The position numbers and the translations under genes are program-made. A stretch of DNA of 39,245 nucleotides from Armatimonadota bacterium (GTDB lineage Bacteria; Armatimonadota; Zipacnadia; UBA1398; JAKPQA01): assembly GCA_029547025.1 (NCBI GenBank), contig JAKPQA010000190.1:1-39245 (forward strand), written 5' to 3'. The notes beneath the pieces were generated by a model. It saw only the letters and a list, made by a program, of their open reading frames with translations. It did no database searches and had not been told where the DNA came from. This document shows, one piece after another, positions 5,369 to 13,367 of this stretch (positions within the stretch are counted from its first letter, which is position 1; every line of letters starts with the position of its first letter).

Positions 5369-6682
5369 ATGTCCGCGTGGACCGCATCGTCACTGACCCG
5401 CCGCACGTTCATCGGGAAGTGCACCCAGGGGGTTATGGGTTTGGGCATGGCGGCAGCAGGATCCAGGAGAGCACGGGCGGTGTCTGCGAACGACCGCATC
5501 ACCGTGGGGCACATCGGCGTGGGCGGGATGGGCAACGCGCACGTGAGCTGGTTCGCCGGCTTCCCCGATGTGGACACGGCGGCGCTCTGTGACGTCGACG
5601 AGACGCACCTCACCGCAACGATGGACCGGCTGAAGGAGATGCGGCCGGACACGAAAGCCCAAGCGTACCGGGACTTCCGGAACGTGCTGGAGCGGGACGA
5701 TATCGATGTGATCACTTGCGCGACGCCGGACCACTGGCATGCGCTGGTGGCCATCATGGCTTTCGAGGCGGGGAAGGACGTGTACGGCGAGAAGCCGCTG
5801 TGTCACTCGGTGGCCGAGAGCCACGCCATGGTGAGAGCGCGGAAGCGTTACGGACGCGTCTTCCAGCTGGGTACCCAGATTCACGCTGACGACAACTACC
5901 ACCGAGTGGTGGAGCTGGTTCGCGCGGGCGTGCTGGGGAGGATCCACACGGTGCGCGTTTGGAAGGAAGGCGGGTCACCGGGGCTGGGATTCCCGCCGAA
6001 CGAGACGCCCCCGCCCACGCTGGACTGGGATATGTGGCTGGGACCGGCTCCGTGGAGCCCCTACACGCCCGCTCGGTGCCACTTCAACTTCCGCTACTTC
6101 TTCGACTACTCGGGGGGCACGTACGCGGACTTCTGGTGCCACATCGCGGACATCGCTTACTGGGCCATGGGTGATCTTGGGGAACCCAAGACCATCGATG
6201 CCCGTGGGGAGACACCGAAGGACGGGATTGCCGACACGCCTGCGTGGATCGACGTGGACTACGACTTTGGCGACGTGAAGCTGTTGTGGACGACGAAGGC
6301 GCCCGATGTGCCCGGAGCAGCTGGCCGCGGGATCGGATGCCAGTTCGAAGGGGACCGCGGCTCGATGGTGGTCGATTACGGGAGCCGGGTGCTGTTCATC
6401 GACGGCAAGGAGCTGACGGACATCCCCGAGGTGCCACAGAGCATTCCGCGGTCGCCCGGCCACCCGCGGAACTTCCTGGACTGCGTGCGGAGCCGCGAGG
6501 CGCCGGAGAGCCACCTCGATTATGTGCACACCATGACGCTGCCGATGCTCCTGGGCTGCATCTCGTTCCGGCTTGGGCGCAAGCTCACGTGGGATTCGGT
6601 GAAGCAGCGGTTCGTGGACGATGATGCAGCGAACCGGATGCTGGCGCCGCCCTACCGGGAGCCGTGGCACCTGCCGGCATAG
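5369..6682 (+). CDS. Tat-exported Gfo/Idh/MocA-family oxidoreductase
   Basis: 437 residues. ATG 5369 has GGGAGG seven bases upstream. The N-terminus has a twin-arginine signal (LTRRTFIGK, then a hydrophobic, Ala/Gly-rich stretch and a likely cleavage after about residue 38), so it is probably exported folded with its cofactor. Then comes the Rossmann domain: ITVGHIGVGGMGNAHV (glycine motif), CDVDE, and GEKPLCHS, which holds the conserved E-K-P lysine. The C-terminal alpha/beta domain has the FDYSGGTYADFWCHIADIAYW segment with the family's H-x-x-D. The family uses NAD(P) to oxidise or reduce sugars, inositols or glycosides; exported members in this kind of genome often come with saccharolytic genes. 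The substrate is unknown. Confidence 0.92.
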   Translation: MSAWTASSLTRRTFIGKCTQGVMGLGMAAAGSRRARAVSANDRITVGHIGVGGMGNAHVSWFAGFPDVDTAALCDVDETHLTATMDRLKEMRPDTKAQAYRDFRNVLERDDIDVITCATPDHWHALVAIMAFEAGKDVYGEKPLCHSVAESHAMVRARKRYGRVFQLGTQIHADDNYHRVVELVRAGVLGRIHTVRVWKEGGSPGLGFPPNETPPPTLDWDMWLGPAPWSPYTPARCHFNFRYFFDYSGGTYADFWCHIADIAYWAMGDLGEPKTIDARGETPKDGIADTPAWIDVDYDFGDVKLLWTTKAPDVPGAAGRGIGCQFEGDRGSMVVDYGSRVLFIDGKELTDIPEVPQSIPRSPGHPRNFLDCVRSREAPESHLDYVHTMTLPMLLGCISFRLGRKLTWDSVKQRFVDDDAANRMLAPPYREPWHLPA

Positions 6683-6742
6683 GGTCGAGGCATGCCTAGT
6701 TCGGGTCAGGTGCCAAGGCCTTGGGCGCGAGAGTGGGCACCG

Positions 6743-6952
6743 ATGGGCGCCCGGGCGATCCTGACGGTGCCGCGCGACGGGCCCGGGAGCCTGCGGGCTG
6801 TGGCCGGCCGGTGGGCCCTGGCGCTGGCCGAAAGCGTGAAGGCCGAGCACCGGGGGCTGGCGCTGGAGCTCTACGGAAACGTGCTGGACCACGCGGCGCT
6901 CGTCTCCCAGCGCGAGGCAGCCGCCTTGGGTATTCGGGACCTGGTGAAGTGA
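6743..6952 (+). CDS. Small hypothetical protein or gene remnant (69 residues)
   Basis: Between the oxidoreductase and the haem/PD40 gene lies a frame whose third codon positions are almost all G or C from ATG 6743 to TGA 6952, like real genes here. An ATG at 6692 in the same frame is followed by codons without that bias, so I prefer 6743 (GAGAG about nine bases upstream). The product has a beta strand start (ARAILTVPRDGPGS), then helices (RWALALAESVKAEHRGLALELYG, NVLDHAALVSQREAAALGI). It could be the surviving end of a larger decayed gene. No family recognised. Confidence 0.4.
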   Translation: MGARAILTVPRDGPGSLRAVAGRWALALAESVKAEHRGLALELYGNVLDHAALVSQREAAALGIRDLVK

Positions 6953-6978
6953 CCGGTGCGGGGCGAAGGGCGGCGACG

Positions 6979-9900
6979 ATGACACGATCCGTCATGGGGC
7001 TGGCGGCGGTGCTTGCCCTGGGGCTGCTGGGGGCCCACGGCGAAGAGGGGCCGCGGCGCAGCAGCTTCGTGGTGCGGGCGTACGAGTTCGATCGGGGGAA
7101 CGTGGCGGTCTCCGATGTGGGCATGGCCTATGCGGACGCCGAACCGGTAATCTTCAACGGTGGGCCGACACCGAATGCGACCGAGTACGATCTCGACTTT
7201 CCGGTGACTGCTCGGTACGCGATCTCGGGTCGGTACGCCGCGGCCGAGTCCCGACCGGTGGACCTCAGGCTCGATGGGGTCGACCTCGTGCGAGGGTTTG
7301 CCGGCACCACGGGCAGTTGGCAGTCGAGTACGGCCATCTGGGAGCTCCTGACGGAGGTCGACATTGAGGCCGGTCGGCATACGGTCTCTCTGGTCTGTCC
7401 CGGCCCCTGCATGCCGCATATCGTGGCGTTGCGGTTCGAGTCTTCAGCGCCGTTCCCCGCCGGGTGGAGGCGCAGACCGAAGCCCATCGAGGCCGCACCC
7501 GTGGCGTGGAGCGGCACACCTGAGCCCGGCCGGTACGGCTATGAGGCCTATGTGCGACCCGATGGCTTCGTTGATGCTCCCGCCGACTACGATCCGGTCA
7601 TCCCGTATGAGCGGGTCCCGGCTCCCGCGCCGCGTGCCGAGCGCCTGCTGGAGTACCTGCTAATGGGTGAGGGGCGCTACACCGTGCGGGCGGAGATGAT
7701 GCGTGATGAGATGGACGAGACCTGGTCTGCCCATCTCTCAGTGGTGGTCTCAGAGGACCGCACCGACACCGGCGTGCTGCCTCTTGACGCCGAACGGATT
7801 CGGAGGATGGCCGAGCACACGCGCTTCCTCGCGGACCAGTTTCGCAACCGTTGGGGCCTGGACCTGAGGGAGGCGCGCGACGAGGCCGGAGCACTTCTGG
7901 CCGCGGTCGAGCGCCTCGAGTCGACGGCCGATGACGAGGCCAAGTGGCGCGGCATGTACGACCTGTATGTGGCTGCCTATCGACTCAAGAACCGCGTGGC
8001 ACTGAGCAACCCGCTACTGTCGTTCGGGAAGCTGCTGTTCGCCAAGCGGCAGACGTATGACACGAGCCACATCTACACCACGTACTTTGACGGGAGCCAC
8101 CGGTTCGGGGGGAGCCTGGCCATGCTCTCGCCGCCGCGGCCGGACGGGCCGGTTGAGGCCGTGTTGGCCGGGCTTCCGGAGACGGGCATCTTTCGCGACC
8201 CGGACGTCTCGTGGGATGGCGCGCGCGCCCTGTTCTCGTACAAGGCCGATGGTCCGTCGCCGTACCGGATCTATGAGGTGAACCTCGACGGATCAGGTGC
8301 CCGGCAGCTCACGGACAGCGAGTATGACGACATCGACCCGTGCTATCTGCCCGACGGCCGGATCATGTTCGTGTCGACGCGCTGTCGGCGGGTGGTGCTG
8401 TGCCACAACGCGTTCACCGTGTCGGTGCTCTACACTATGTCCAGCGATGGCAGTGACGTACGTTGTGCCTCGTCGAACACGGTGAACGACTTCACTCCGA
8501 GCGTGCTCGCTGACGGTTCGGTTGCCTACACGAGATGGGAGTATGTCGATAAGCAGCTCGGGAACAACCAGAGCCTGTGGGTTGTGAATCCTGACGGGAC
8601 CATGCCGCGGCACATGACCGGCGAGCACTGGGGGCCGATCACGTTCTGGGAGCCCCGGCAGGTTCCCGGCAGCTCGCTGCTCGTATGCACCTTGGCTCCG
8701 CATATGCCCATCGCCGTGGGGCCCATCGCGCTGGTGGACCCGGCCGACGTGTGTTCGAGCCCGGCACGCTTCACGAACATCACGCCGGAGCTCCCGCCGC
8801 CGAGTCACTTTGGCTGGGCCCGCCGGGACGTGGGCTACTACTGCAATCCCTACCCGCTCTCGGAGGAGTACTTCATCGTCTCGTATGCGTACGGTCCCGA
8901 CGACCGCGAGCCTGCCGGCTACGGGCTGTATCTTCTGGACCGGTGGAACAACCGCGACCTCATCTACCGCGACCCGGGCACATCGTGCTTCGAGGCGTTT
9001 CCCGTCACACCTCGCCGGCGGCCGCCGGCCTACCCTGAGCAGGGCGTGGGGGCTGGGGACGCGACGGGTACGATGCTCGTCATGGACGTCTACCAGGGCT
9101 TGCCGGATGTGCCGAGAGGCACGGTGAAGTACATCCGCATCGTCGAGGAAGTGCCCAAGCCCGTGGCGGCGGAGTGCACCGGGCCTCGCCTCCAGTACCC
9201 GGTGGTCAGCGCCATGAGTCATCTGGCCGTGAAGCGCCTTCTGGGCACGGTGCCCGTCGAGGAGGACGGCTCGGCCTGCTTCCGTGTCCCGGCTGATGTG
9301 CCGGTCTACTTCGCGGCGCTGGACGAGAACATGATGGAGGTTCAGCGGATGCGGGCGTTCACGCAGGTGCGGGCGGGGGAGCGAACCGCGTGCATCGGGT
9401 GTCACGAGGCCCGGATCACTGCCCCGGCGAACGCCGTGCCGCTGGCCGCTCGGCGGGAGCCCTCGACTATCGAGCCGCCGCCGGATGGCGTGCACGCTCC
9501 GGACTTCGCCTATGACGTTCAGCCCGTGCTGGACCGGCACTGTCAGCGGTGCCATTCGGGTGCGGACCCCGCGGGGAAGCTGGATCTCTCGGACACGCGG
9601 ACAAACCTGTTCAACGTGGCCTACGAGAACCTGGTGACCCGGGGCTATGTGGCCTACGTCGATGCCAATAGCTCCGCGACACTGCCCCTGCGCCCGGCGA
9701 AGTACTACGGGTCACATGCCAGCAAGCTAGTGCAGACGCTGTTGACGACGCACCGCGAGCGTGTGAGGCTGTCGAAGGCAGACTTCGAGCGCCTGGTGAC
9801 CTGGGTCGACTGCAATGCGCCCTACTATGGGACCTACGTCTATGGGCGGAAGGGCACCCTGGGCGGCCGCGAGCTACTGACCGGCGCCGTCCGGGCGGCG

Positions 9901-10206
9901 TTACAGCCCGTCTATGACCGGCGGTGCGCGTCGTGCCACGGTGGCGACGTGGCGGCCGTGACACGAGTGGACTTTCGCCGAGTGGACCGAAGTCCGATGC
10001 TGCTGGCCCCGCTCGCGCGGGACGCCGGCGGAACCGAGCGCTGTGGCCAGGCGGTGTTCCCGAGGGACGACGATCCTGACGCGCTTGCATGGGCCGAGGG
10101 CATGCGGATCCTGGCCTCGGAGGTGGCCAGCAACCCGCGGGAGGACATGTTGCCCGAGCGTCCGCCGATCAGCGACCCGCTGTGCCGATACGTGTACCGG
10201 CCGTAA
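6979..10206 (+). CDS. Secreted PD40 / tri-haem cytochrome-type protein with HzsA-like middle domain
   Basis: 1075 residues. ATG 6979 begins a signal peptide (TRSVMGLAAVLALGLLGAHG). Residues about 25-160 look like a galactose-binding-like beta sandwich of the CBM6/CBM35 sort (YDLDFPVTARYAISGRY, IEAGRHTVSLVC). About 330-470 and onward hold TolB/PD40 propeller strands (DPDVSWDGARALFSYK; IYEVNLDGSGARQLTDSEYDD; CYLPDGRIMFVSTR). At about 740-810 comes a segment like the middle domain of hydrazine synthase alpha (KRLLGTVPVEEDGSACFRVP ... RAFTQVRAGERTACIGCHE). Three CxxCH haem motifs follow: CIGCH at 805, CQRCH at 855, CASCH at 983. HzsA-related proteins are widespread in Planctomycetota that do not carry out anammox, so hydrazine synthesis is not implied. 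The role may be electron transfer coupled to extracellular substrate oxidation. Upstream is a Tat-exported oxidoreductase. Confidence 0.85.
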   Translation: MTRSVMGLAAVLALGLLGAHGEEGPRRSSFVVRAYEFDRGNVAVSDVGMAYADAEPVIFNGGPTPNATEYDLDFPVTARYAISGRYAAAESRPVDLRLDGVDLVRGFAGTTGSWQSSTAIWELLTEVDIEAGRHTVSLVCPGPCMPHIVALRFESSAPFPAGWRRRPKPIEAAPVAWSGTPEPGRYGYEAYVRPDGFVDAPADYDPVIPYERVPAPAPRAERLLEYLLMGEGRYTVRAEMMRDEMDETWSAHLSVVVSEDRTDTGVLPLDAERIRRMAEHTRFLADQFRNRWGLDLREARDEAGALLAAVERLESTADDEAKWRGMYDLYVAAYRLKNRVALSNPLLSFGKLLFAKRQTYDTSHIYTTYFDGSHRFGGSLAMLSPPRPDGPVEAVLAGLPETGIFRDPDVSWDGARALFSYKADGPSPYRIYEVNLDGSGARQLTDSEYDDIDPCYLPDGRIMFVSTRCRRVVLCHNAFTVSVLYTMSSDGSDVRCASSNTVNDFTPSVLADGSVAYTRWEYVDKQLGNNQSLWVVNPDGTMPRHMTGEHWGPITFWEPRQVPGSSLLVCTLAPHMPIAVGPIALVDPADVCSSPARFTNITPELPPPSHFGWARRDVGYYCNPYPLSEEYFIVSYAYGPDDREPAGYGLYLLDRWNNRDLIYRDPGTSCFEAFPVTPRRRPPAYPEQGVGAGDATGTMLVMDVYQGLPDVPRGTVKYIRIVEEVPKPVAAECTGPRLQYPVVSAMSHLAVKRLLGTVPVEEDGSACFRVPADVPVYFAALDENMMEVQRMRAFTQVRAGERTACIGCHEARITAPANAVPLAARREPSTIEPPPDGVHAPDFAYDVQPVLDRHCQRCHSGADPAGKLDLSDTRTNLFNVAYENLVTRGYVAYVDANSSATLPLRPAKYYGSHASKLVQTLLTTHRERVRLSKADFERLVTWVDCNAPYYGTYVYGRKGTLGGRELLTGAVRAALQPVYDRRCASCHGGDVAAVTRVDFRRVDRSPMLLAPLARDAGGTERCGQAVFPRDDDPDALAWAEGMRILASEVASNPREDMLPERPPISDPLCRYVYRP

Positions 10207-10214
10207 GTGACAAC

Positions 10215-10285
10215 GGACACCGCGAGGGTCTGCCCCGCACCCCGCTTCGCGGCCGGACACCGCGGAGCTCTGCCCCGCACCCCGC
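10215..10285. repeat. Two direct copies of a 31-base C-rich unit
   Basis: The unit beginning GGACACCGCG and ending TGCCCCGCACCCCGC occurs at 10215-10245 and again at 10255-10285, with 28 of 31 bases the same and a period of 40. It lies in the 164-base space between convergent genes and leads straight into the hairpin at 10285-10304. It looks like an interspersed intergenic repeat rather than coding sequence. Confidence 0.6.
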
Positions 10286-10304
10286 CAGGGGACCTGTCCC
10301 CTGG
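10285..10304. terminator. Hairpin between convergent genes
   Basis: CCAGGGGA (10285-10292), loop CCTG, TCCCCTGG (10297-10304): a perfect eight-base GC-rich stem between the stops of the haem/PD40 gene and the clan-A glycosidase. No T-run follows on either side, so a classical intrinsic terminator is not proven. It may be a bidirectional stop, mRNA 3' end protection, or simply part of the repeat. Confidence 0.4.
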
Positions 10305-10370
10305 ACCCCATCCAGGAGCGGCCTGGAACATCCGCCGCGACCGCCGGCGAGGGACCGCTTGGCTCGCCCA

Positions 10371-13367
10371 TCATTCTGCCAGATAGACATCGCGGTAGGC
10401 GAGGGGGCGCTTGGACTCGCCGATCCCCGGCGTGATGCCGATCCAGTAACCGCGGCCGGTGCCGTCGTTGTCGTTCACGATGACGTTGAGGCCCATGACG
10501 CGACCGGGGACGGGCTGTATGCCCATGGTCGCCCACGGGATGACGATGCGATATGAGATCAGGTCGTCGGCAAGGCGCTGAGCGCTGAACTCGCACTCAA
10601 GCGGCTTCCGTTCCGGCACGGTCATGTAGGCTTTGGGGCCGTCGTTGCCGAGGACCAGCCCGAACTCGCGGTCGTCGGCGTCGAAGCCGGTCGCGGGGCC
10701 GGCGTCGTTGAGGGGATCGACGGCGATCTGGACGGAGTCGCTTTCCCAGAACCCTCCCACCTCGGCGATGGGAACCGCGTGCCGGTCGTCGCGAACTGCC
10801 ACCTCGAGCACGAGGCCGTCTTGTGACCAGCTGGCCCAGACGCGTGCACTGAGGTCTTCGGGACCCGTCCATCCGATACCGGGGTCGGAGGGCAGCACCT
10901 GCGCTCGCTGGTCGAGGACGGCGAGTGGCTGCGGCGGCTCGGCCGCCGAGGACATTGCGGGATGGCGGTAGGGCTTCAGCGGTGTGAGATCGAGGTGCAC
11001 TGCGGCGGTCTCCTCCGTCTCGGCCGACCGCGCGGACAGTGTGACGTCCTGGCCGGCCAGCGGAAGCAGTCCGCCGGGGATGGAGAGAGAGGCGGTCGCT
11101 GCGGCGCCCGCAGGGAGGTCCAGGTCGGCAGTGACGCCGCGCGCCTCGATGGTCACCCGCCTGGGGTCGGGCGTGACGTTTCGCAGCCTGGCGCTCAGGC
11201 TGCCGGTGTCGCCGGCGAAGGCGGCTTCGATCCGCACCGGGACGGCGACGGACACTGCTGCCTCGGTCAGCGCTTGTCGGAAGTCGGACAGAGCGTCGAG
11301 GGGGACCTGAATGTAGGTGGGCGCGCGGTCGAGCGCAACGCGGATGGCTTCGCCTCGCCCGCCGTCGGCCAATGGGCGGCCCATCAGGTCATCGACGCGC
11401 CACTCGGCCGGCGCGCGGGCGATTGCCAGGTTCGCGGCACCGTCCTCGGACCAGGCCACCAGGGTGGCCTGCCCGGTATCCTCGGACGCGAACAGGTGGG
11501 CCTGGAGGTTTGGGCTGAGGACGGGCGAGTCCACGGGCGTGGCGTGGTGCAATTTGCTCGCGAGCGTACTGTAGGCCAGGGCGGCAGGCAGAGGCATGCC
11601 CTTTCGGAAGAGCCCATACTCGTAGCCTCCCTCGTTGCAGCCCTCCTCCAGGAACCAGAAGTAGCGCTCGACACGCGGGACCGAGTGAGCGATCACCATT
11701 GACTGCACCAGGCACTCGGCGAACTGGCGGGAGTGGTCGGACAGCGACGGGGCGGACACGTCGAGGCCCCAGCCCTTCTCGCCGATCCAGAAGCGCTGGC
11801 TGCCACCGTGGCGGTCGATCATGGCGATGGTATCGAGGCACTTGCGGCGTTCTTCGTTGCGGACGGGCCACATGGGCTGCTGGCCCTCGCCAAAGTAGCG
11901 GACGCCGGCATAGGGGTGGCCGGTGTAGACGTCGATGAGGTTGCCGCATGAGGCCATCATCGCCTCACTAAAGGGTAGCCCGCCGTCGTAGTCGCCGCCG
12001 CTGACGTCGATGCCGGCCACCCGCGCGCCGGGTGCCCCTCGCCGGACGGCCGCGGCCGCAGACTCGAGGATGCGGGCGTAGCGTTCAGCGCCCTTGGCGA
12101 GATCGAGGCCCACCTGCCACATGCACGTGAGGTCCGGCTCGTTCTGGATCTCAAAGGTGTCGACCATCGGTGCCAGCTCGCGGGCGGAGTGTTCGACGAA
12201 TGCGGCCCACCAGGCGATGCGCTCGGCGGCGCGGTCACCGACCCAGAAGTCGTGGCCCGCTGCTTGCTCCTCGGCCCACGCGGGCGGATAGGCCGTCATC
12301 GTGTACATGATGAGTTGATGGTTGGCTCGAATCTCAGAGAGATCAGGGAGCCAGTAACTGCCGCGCTGCATCTCCGCCCATTTCCAGTCGCGGCCGGCGC
12401 GCACCCACTTGGCACCGAGACGCTCGGTGCGAGCACCGTTGCTCGAGCACTGGATGCCGAAGAAGCTCGAGGGGTCGTCCTGGCCGAAGTTGCGCGGGCG
12501 CTCAACGACAACCACAGCGCCCAGACCGCGCGCGAGGACGTCGTCGCCACGCGCGACCCGGGCTGTGAGGGCCCAGTATTCGGGACTGGAGCCCGGCAAC
12601 GTAACGGTCTGGGTCGCCGCCGCGAACGCGGGGAGCAGCAGGTCGCGGTCCAGGAGCTCAACACGGTCGCCGTGCCAGCTCTCGGCGACCACGCGCAGGG
12701 CAAGCCTAGCCTCCTCGTCGACCGCGTTCTCGACCGTCACCGCGACGGGCACCCGGTCACCGGAGGCGAAGACCACATCACCGGGCTCGCCTGTCCGCAG
12801 TGTGAGTCGGTAGCGGAGTTCGGGGGCGCTGGTGCGGAACGTGAGGTCATCGATCAGGCACGACCCCTGAAGTGTGGGTCCCCGGTTCACGCCGATGAGG
12901 ATGGTTGTCAGCGGGAAGTGGAACTCGCCGTCGTTGGCGCCACCCCAGTGGGCGCCAAAGGTGGCCGCGTCCAGGCTAAGGCGCACCGTCTGCCAGTCGG
13001 CTCCGTCGATGGGGAAGCCGGCCGCGTGTTCCTGGCCGGTGGCGTCGGCGATGCGGATGAAGCCGGAGTTGGCGCCGTCCTGGCGGATGCGGAATGAGAC
13101 GGCGGACGCCTGGCTGACGTCGATGGCGCGGGCGGCCGTGACGTAGTTCCCGCCGTGGCGGAAGTCGTAGTCCAGCCGGATGCATTGGCCGTCGTCGCTC
13201 GCAGCCACGCTGCCGCTTGCACCGGGGAACTCCCAGCCCAAGTTGGCGCCCCAGAGGGCGGCATTGTCGCACCGGTCCATGAGGCAGTCACGCTCGTCGG
13301 TCCGCGCGGCGCAGGAGGTGCCCGCGAGCACGAGGGCGACAAGGGTGTGGAGGGCGTGCTTGGGCAT
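10371..13367 (-). CDS. Secreted clan-A glycoside hydrolase (GH39-like) with CBM9 tail
   Basis: 998 residues. ATG at 13367 with GAGAGAGGA eight bases upstream; the signal peptide covers about residues 1-20 (HALHTLVALVLAGTSCAA). Residues about 20-180 form a jelly-roll module (SFRIRQDG...WQTVRLSLDAATFG), then beta domains. The TIM-barrel region runs about 300-600: SSFFGIQCSSN, KWVRAGRDW, then EIQNEPD with E410 as likely acid/base and FWIGEKGWG with E530 as likely nucleophile, as in GH39/GH5-type clan-A enzymes. More beta domains follow. The last about 180 residues (WASWSQDGLVLEVAVRDD, FWESDSVQIAVDPLND, YWIGITPGIGE) match the CBM9 fold found on xylanases. It likely attacks an extracellular beta-linked polysaccharide, with xylan-type substrates favoured by the CBM9. 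GH number is an inference. Confidence 0.85.
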   Translation of the reverse strand: MPKHALHTLVALVLAGTSCAARTDERDCLMDRCDNAALWGANLGWEFPGASGSVAASDDGQCIRLDYDFRHGGNYVTAARAIDVSQASAVSFRIRQDGANSGFIRIADATGQEHAAGFPIDGADWQTVRLSLDAATFGAHWGGANDGEFHFPLTTILIGVNRGPTLQGSCLIDDLTFRTSAPELRYRLTLRTGEPGDVVFASGDRVPVAVTVENAVDEEARLALRVVAESWHGDRVELLDRDLLLPAFAAATQTVTLPGSSPEYWALTARVARGDDVLARGLGAVVVVERPRNFGQDDPSSFFGIQCSSNGARTERLGAKWVRAGRDWKWAEMQRGSYWLPDLSEIRANHQLIMYTMTAYPPAWAEEQAAGHDFWVGDRAAERIAWWAAFVEHSARELAPMVDTFEIQNEPDLTCMWQVGLDLAKGAERYARILESAAAAVRRGAPGARVAGIDVSGGDYDGGLPFSEAMMASCGNLIDVYTGHPYAGVRYFGEGQQPMWPVRNEERRKCLDTIAMIDRHGGSQRFWIGEKGWGLDVSAPSLSDHSRQFAECLVQSMVIAHSVPRVERYFWFLEEGCNEGGYEYGLFRKGMPLPAALAYSTLASKLHHATPVDSPVLSPNLQAHLFASEDTGQATLVAWSEDGAANLAIARAPAEWRVDDLMGRPLADGGRGEAIRVALDRAPTYIQVPLDALSDFRQALTEAAVSVAVPVRIEAAFAGDTGSLSARLRNVTPDPRRVTIEARGVTADLDLPAGAAATASLSIPGGLLPLAGQDVTLSARSAETEETAAVHLDLTPLKPYRHPAMSSAAEPPQPLAVLDQRAQVLPSDPGIGWTGPEDLSARVWASWSQDGLVLEVAVRDDRHAVPIAEVGGFWESDSVQIAVDPLNDAGPATGFDADDREFGLVLGNDGPKAYMTVPERKPLECEFSAQRLADDLISYRIVIPWATMGIQPVPGRVMGLNVIVNDNDGTGRGYWIGITPGIGESKRPLAYRDVYLAE

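Follow-up and report, generated by a model that had tools for sequence, protein, structure and literature searches.

An Armatimonadota Protein with Three Haem Motifs on the Hydrazine Synthase Alpha Scaffold: A Candidate Carbohydrate-Targeted Oxidoreductase

Results

Gene and Domain Organisation of P0001

According to the open reading frame list and its translation, positions 6979..10206 on the forward strand of the window (the whole stretch of 39,245 nucleotides analysed here) hold a gene that runs from ATG to stop and encodes a secreted-type tri-haem HzsA-like protein of 1075 amino acids, P0001; orthologs sharing 59-68% identity with it align over nearly the full length. The translation begins with MTRSVMGLAAVLALGLLGAHG, which can be read directly as a Sec-type N-terminus, and the predicted signal peptide corresponds to about residues 1-21 (6979..7041), its cleavage site being approximate. 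Judging from this leader, export of P0001 to the outside of the cytoplasm is plausible.

A preliminary description, made from the letters of this DNA, had divided P0001 into a CBM6/35-like module, TolB/PD40 propeller strands, an HZS_alpha domain and three CxxCH motifs. This anatomy is correct, because the motif, domain, profile and AF2/Foldseek results all match it. The first module lies at residues 27-165 (7057..7473). It was not detected in the Pfam scan of the whole protein, and Pfam CBM_6 on the module itself stayed under the cut-off (E 4.8e-5; 24.1 bits against a gathering score of 28.9). The assignment is thus weak by sequence alone, but it becomes firmer by family profile and fold: a profile built from nine related modules hits an exo-chitosanase CBM35 (PDB 2vzp, E 5.8e-8), and the AF2 model of the module matches solved CBM35s (2w47 and others; Foldseek E 2.5e-7, TM ~0.75), several of the best structural matches having been solved with uronic-acid ligands. 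As modelled, the N-terminal module is probably sugar-binding.

A helical region (residues 271-341, 7789..8001; AF2 secondary structure with pLDDT >90) lies 5' of a TolB/PD40-type beta-propeller, which spans about residues 351-676 (8029..9006). The PD40 match (E 0.006 in Pfam) is on its own under the cut-off, and the TolB model scores 33 bits against a cut-off of 343, but TolB profile matches, the AF2 strands and Foldseek fold matches to TolB and HzsA back the propeller. The HZS_alpha middle domain (PF18582) occupies residues 714-810 (9118..9408), with 84.8 bits against a cut-off of 26.6 (E 6.4e-24), and the whole-genome search found it at the same place. The AF2 model of P0001 has a mean pLDDT of 81.1, most of the core being >90, and Foldseek ranks the two HzsA chains first among PDB structures (E 1.6e-27 over 791 columns) and TolB after them.

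Haem Sites

CxxCH occurs three times in P0001, at residues 805, 855 and 983, which exceeds chance: 0.008 motifs are expected from the composition of the protein, and none of 20,000 shuffles reached three. All three are kept in the orthologs mentioned above, which come from other families of the class. The haem alpha-I motif CIGCH (residues 805-809, 9391..9405) is followed by Glu810; among 79 aligned homologs CxGCH is found in all 79 and the following Glu in 65. The haem alpha-II motif CQRCH (residues 855-859, 9541..9555) aligns with the alpha-II motif of HzsA, and this CxxCH is likewise present in 79/79. Profile alignment to 5c2v_A (chain position 745) makes His925 (9751..9753) the equivalent of HzsA His772 and the predicted distal ligand of haem alpha-II; it is kept in 74/79, and we infer from the CxxCH and this histidine that haem alpha-II would be bis-His ligated. 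The third motif, CASCH (residues 983-987, 9925..9939), is absent from HzsA. All 12 HZS_alpha proteins of the genome have the two HzsA-type haem motifs, about 50 residues apart, and 3 of them have the third, the other nine lacking it; in the tree of the family the third haem has been gained or lost repeatedly.

Cytochrome c assembly/maturation genes are present in the genome, so that P0001 combines the three motifs, a signal peptide and a host with the maturation genes, as expected of a c-type cytochrome. Haem proteins require a route for electrons; the genome lacks a haem-copper oxidase, and a bd oxidase is the only terminal oxidase found in it, so it is not evident where periplasmic cytochromes would deliver their electrons.

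Relationship to Hydrazine Synthase Alpha

P0001 was compared with HzsA by PDB sequence and profile alignments to the Kuenenia stuttgartiensis chain 5c2v_A. It matches this chain with E 4.9e-13 in phmmer, and the family profile does so with E 6.9e-33 in four collinear blocks, which cover two parts of the propeller, the middle domain up to its terminal CxxCH, and the cytochrome domain at the C-terminus. The PF18582 score, this profile match and the top rank of HzsA chains in Foldseek bear out the HzsA-like character proposed in the preliminary description, and place P0001 in the HZS_alpha superfamily by both domain score and fold.

Agreement in fold and domain order might suggest that P0001 is a genuine hydrazine synthase alpha subunit, and its host an unrecognised anammox-type organism. 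We regard the chance of this as negligible, and rule it out on residues, score and genome content. Firstly, P0001 scores 79.3 bits with the equivalog model NF052339, whose cut-off is 800. Secondly, Tyr591, the proximal ligand of haem alpha-I in HzsA (PMC12607021), has no equivalent: at +4 after the CxxCH His, where it would stand, P0001 has Ile and the homologs vary, and 85 of 92 have no Tyr within 6 residues. Thirdly, HzsA Cys303, which binds zinc together with the alpha-I residue His587 (PMC12758564, PMC12607021), maps to a D-A loop of the propeller; the equivalent loop contains no Cys in P0001, and any Cys there is found in only 12 of 79 homologs. Finally, searching the genome, which is 96% complete, with the beta-gamma model NF052342 gave no match at E 1e-15, and Pfam scans revealed no beta-gamma genes within the window.

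A Conserved Set of Residues on One Face of the Propeller

By AF2 strand assignment, Cys475 (8401..8403), the RW[ED]Y motif R519-W520-E521-Y522 (8533..8544) at the start of the next loop, and His575 (8701..8703) are located in the B-C loops of three blades that follow one another. A Cys somewhere in the C475 loop, R519, E/D at position 521 and Y522 are present in 79/79 aligned homologs, W520 in 78/79 and H575 in 75/79; in the same alignment, no such conservation is seen in the B-C loops of the two flanking blades. The B-C and D-A loops share one face of a propeller. Since the D-A loop of HzsA Cys303, whose zinc is shared with His587, is on this same face, propeller topology leads us to infer that the conserved Cys, Arg, Trp, Glu or Asp, Tyr and His face haem alpha-I. 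Haem alpha-I, with the His of its own CxxCH as ligand, would therefore be an active site in a new pocket.

Alternatively, P0001 could be an electron-transfer or adhesion protein without catalysis. Its haems would then do no more than conduct electrons, and the CBM would tether it to glycan of a biofilm or cell surface, where it would serve as a local sink or conduit for electrons. The repeated gain and loss of the third haem, the lack of a dedicated partner (see below) and the common use of propeller folds as interaction scaffolds fit such a protein; on the other hand, a mere carrier would have no need of a Cys/Arg/Trp/Tyr/His set that is restricted to B-C loops on three blades, is flanked by unconserved blades and resembles a buried active site. 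We hold this alternative to be possible, albeit unlikely.

Distribution, Paralogs and Accessory Modules

The Armatimonadota genome that carries P0001 (6.3 Mb) encodes 12 HZS_alpha proteins. The family is present in 24 of 151 Armatimonadota genomes, in 1-26 copies each, and several of these other Armatimonadota have 15-26. A scan of GTDB contigs gave at least 550 confirmed relatives, the best 80 of which belong to Planctomycetota, Verrucomicrobiota, Kiritimatiellota, Lentisphaerota, Hydrogenedentota, Armatimonadota and a few others; the closest named relative among the matches listed is from an Armatimonadetes MAG (68%). In the family tree, which was built without anammox HzsA and the published clades I-IV (the latter being compared by their published description), the 12 proteins sit at 12 different points, most of them amid proteins from other phyla, and hence are not recent duplicates. 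Each falls in its own subfamily, common to Planctomycetota, Verrucomicrobiota and relatives. By analogy, such scattered placements would fit the pattern of substrate-specialised enzymes.

Most HZS_alpha proteins of the genome carry sugar-binding-type modules: Pfam detects F5/8C, LamG or NPCBM in 6 of the 12, besides the CBM35 fold in P0001. Their termini vary, and include F5/8C, LamG, NPCBM, an FGE-sulfatase domain and a DUF4960-type domain; the modules of 45 further homologs comprise F5/8C (10), DUF7402 (10), LamG (6) and NPCBM (2). The family is thus large, modular, paralogous and spread over many phyla, which goes beyond what the preliminary description had seen. The bacteria that host it are rich in polysaccharide-degrading genes.

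Genomic Neighbourhood

Pfam scans of the window identify genes for a GH78 protein, a CE15 protein, a rhamnogalacturonase/epimerase-like protein, a beta-helix protein and a CBM9-bearing protein. Genomes with the family have only slightly more GH78 genes than others (p 0.02 for raw counts and 0.06 per Mb, the genera not being independent), and we discarded this enrichment as support because it is weak and confounded.

The gene upstream of P0001 (5321-6682) is on the same strand, at a distance of 296 bp, and encodes a Gfo/Idh/MocA protein. The preliminary description took its product to be Tat-exported and possibly paired with P0001; on this view P0001 would accept electrons from its oxidation of sugar. 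The gene, its orientation and an RR-type leader are indeed there, but the TAT model scores 13.3, below its cut-off of 16.7. The proximity of the two genes and the resemblance of the oxidoreductase to glycoside 3-dehydrogenases (NF058561, E 9.5e-51, below cut-off) speak for the pairing, whereas the orthologs largely refute it: four ortholog loci were readable, three with upstream sequence included, and none has a Gfo/Idh/MocA gene near the P0001 ortholog. Family-wide, GFO_IDH_MocA accounts for 2 of the 90 genes directly adjoining family members. Moreover, because the genome carries 82 Gfo/Idh/MocA genes, chance alone would place one within 5 kb of an estimated ~2 of its 12 HZS_alpha genes, compared with 3 of 12 observed. 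Enzymes of the Gfo/Idh/MocA type bind NAD(P) tightly and do not necessarily depend on a cytochrome. The expected co-occurrence with sugar oxidoreductases is therefore missing from both the ortholog flanks and the family-wide neighbour counts, and on these grounds we rejected the pairing, which we consider very improbable.

None of the other window genes recurs in the flanks of the four ortholog loci, which share almost nothing with each other and have no conserved gene partner of the P0001 group. Across the family, neither neighbour clustering nor a near-versus-far Pfam comparison detected a conserved partner gene (sulfatases, for instance, are 2/90 near and 2/90 far), and further HzsA-like copies are located beside family members in 12 of 79 loci. 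P0001 probably works without a dedicated neighbour-encoded partner.

HzsBC-like Genes

Of the 22 family-bearing Armatimonadota genomes sampled, 17 have HzsBC-like fusion genes, usually as one copy, and in 11 of these 17 an HzsA-like gene is within ~110 bp of the fusion gene or overlaps it (10 co-directional; 8 genera). In addition, at two Planctomycetota loci a propeller-dihaem gene adjoins an HzsA-like gene and matches the HzsBC fusion model with E ~1e-51, below cut-off. Together with published alpha/beta-gamma pairs (PMC12758564), these arrangements argue for another possibility, that P0001 is a nitrogen/peroxide-redox enzyme of a hydrazine-synthase-like alpha-beta-gamma complex, in which a MauG/CCP-like beta-gamma makes a small reactive intermediate for alpha and is either supplied in trans or has been lost. 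Several results count against it. The genome of P0001 has no HzsBC homolog despite its 12 alpha-like genes, its single CCP/MauG gene sits on another contig than P0001, and another genome (G015) combines 26 HZS_alpha matches with no HzsBC match. The tree, furthermore, places the HzsBC-linked alphas mainly in the subfamily of the genome's own protein on contig C172, not in that of P0001, and Tyr591 and Cys303 are not conserved. We consider this possibility improbable for P0001. Because the linked alphas cluster elsewhere and the genome is without HzsBC, the family consists of one branch whose members are mainly beta-gamma-linked and of numerous orphans, among them P0001.

Discussion

The reading that we favour, with a probability of about 0.45, is that P0001 is a secreted, carbohydrate-targeted haem oxidoreductase on the hydrazine-synthase-alpha scaffold. 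Its CBM would dock the protein on a polysaccharide, perhaps one rich in uronic acids, as is suspected from the closest solved CBM35s and from the pectin-/glucuronate-type enzymes encoded nearby. Haem alpha-I would be the active site, in a new pocket lined by the conserved propeller loops, and the putatively bis-His haem alpha-II and the third haem may relay electrons between this pocket and a soluble or membrane partner. The reaction could be either oxidation of sugar or reduction of a small oxidant. The scaffold, the haem motifs and the binding fold of this proposal were found by computation; among the steps built on them our confidence is highest for glycan docking, lower for catalysis at haem alpha-I and lowest for the sugar chemistry, and a haem active site is more likely than sugar as the substrate. 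The extracytoplasmic redox role at glycans advanced in the preliminary description is plausible, because an HzsA-type fold, three haem sites, a carbohydrate-binding-type module and export are all supported.

Some observations weigh against a glycan oxidoreductase. CBM-type modules occur on non-enzymes too, P0001 has no conserved partner and no obvious electron sink, and the link with GH78 is weak.

Anammox has hydrazine synthase as its signature enzyme, whose origin was for a long time described as a possible de novo birth. A more speculative view, which we put forward as doubtful, is that HZS_alpha proteins are modular polysaccharide-targeted haem oxidases/reductases of anaerobic and microaerobic degraders, comparable to LPMOs or PSCyt proteins, and that hydrazine synthase is a late offshoot that recruited one beta-gamma-linked member, the Arg-Trp-Tyr/His/Cys pocket being replaced by Tyr591 and zinc. 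The ancestry of HzsA and its ancestral chemistry become testable with a large family that spans many phyla, shares the alpha scaffold, has an identifiable alternative pocket and, in Armatimonadota, includes genes next to beta-gamma genes. Should its members oxidise or reduce glycans, they would be redox enzymes of a kind not yet described, by which uncultured bacteria of lakes and sediments break down polysaccharides.

It remains true, as the preliminary description had it, that the role of HzsA-related proteins outside anammox is not established, although such homologues do figure in PMC12758564. Very few open papers mention HZS_alpha, and the literature searched contained no assayed function for any family member.

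Comparison with Known Systems

HzsA (PDB 5c2v; NF052339; PF18582) and P0001 share, in the same order, the propeller, the HZS_alpha domain with the alpha-I CxxCH, and the cytochrome domain with the alpha-II CxxCH and distal His. P0001 differs in lacking the Tyr591 proximal ligand and the Cys303 zinc ligand, in having a CBM35-fold module, a third haem and the conserved RW[ED]Y/Cys/His loop set, and in that its genome encodes no beta-gamma partner. TolB/PD40 proteins have the propeller repeats in common with P0001, but TolB is cofactor-free and has no haem domains. The N-terminal module is alike in fold to CBM35 and CBM6 modules, the CBM35s being the best matches, but identity is ~20% and Pfam CBM_6 remains below its gathering score.

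The nearest conceptual parallel is provided by the PSCyt/CBM proteins of Verrucomicrobia, whose function is likewise not known (PMC5615132). Like the present family, the PSCyt1-3 cytochromes are multi-copy c-type cytochromes of polysaccharide degraders that are fused to LamG, NPCBM, CBM6 or F5/8C (He et al. 2017, PMC5615132); the core of P0001, on the other hand, consists of PD40 and HZS_alpha, with no PSCyt domain (Pfam, E 0.1).

Non-anammox HzsA homologues have been described as clades I-IV (Hagglund et al. 2025, PMC12758564). As in those clades, the HZS_alpha proteins studied here are non-anammox proteins without Tyr591 and Cys303, and some of the published homologues adjoin beta-gamma fusions. 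In that work alpha homologues are called few, Planctomycetota, Desulfobacterota and a few others being named, and Armatimonadota are not named in its main text. His772 is reported to be missing in clade I, whereas its equivalent is kept in 74/79 of our homologs. The family described here further differs from the published homologues in reaching up to 26 copies per genome, in carrying sugar-binding modules, and in being frequent in some Armatimonadota families.

Haem proteins and polysaccharide-related genes

The source Armatimonadota genome encodes 12 multi-haem HzsA-like proteins, and contains cytochrome c assembly genes and one bd oxidase; a haem-copper oxidase was not found in this genome. 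Among these proteins, the single chain encoded at positions 7520-11590 of locus L010 (contig C157) has a DUF4960/ThuA-like region at its N-terminus and an FGE-sulfatase (formylglycine-generating-type) domain at its C-terminus, and that at 965-3982 of L012 (contig C218) has an apparent insertion of a sugar-binding-like domain of ~150 residues between the CxxCH and the distal His of haem alpha-II.

Polysaccharide-related genes are clustered at 10371-33769 of the window, where a CBM9-bearing protein, a rhamnogalacturonase/epimerase-like protein, a CE15 glucuronoyl esterase, a right-handed beta-helix protein, a GH78 rhamnosidase and a nucleoside-hydrolase-like protein are encoded. This gene content suggests that the cluster targets pectin or glucuronate-rich glycans.

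Neighbours of HzsA-like genes

HzsA-like genes occur in tandem at loci L035, L045, L050, L023 and others, some overlapping or almost doing so (e.g. 5884-8691 and 8687-12163 of L050).

HzsBC-like beta-gamma fusion genes, each encoding two CxxCH motifs, adjoin HzsA-like genes at L089 (7418-12190), L032 (5602-11723) and, in Armatimonadota genomes, L116-L124, L127 and L129. In 11 genomes of this phylum, the two genes overlap or are separated by ~110 bp at most, which extends the published alpha/beta-gamma pairs (PMC12758564) to the phylum Armatimonadota.
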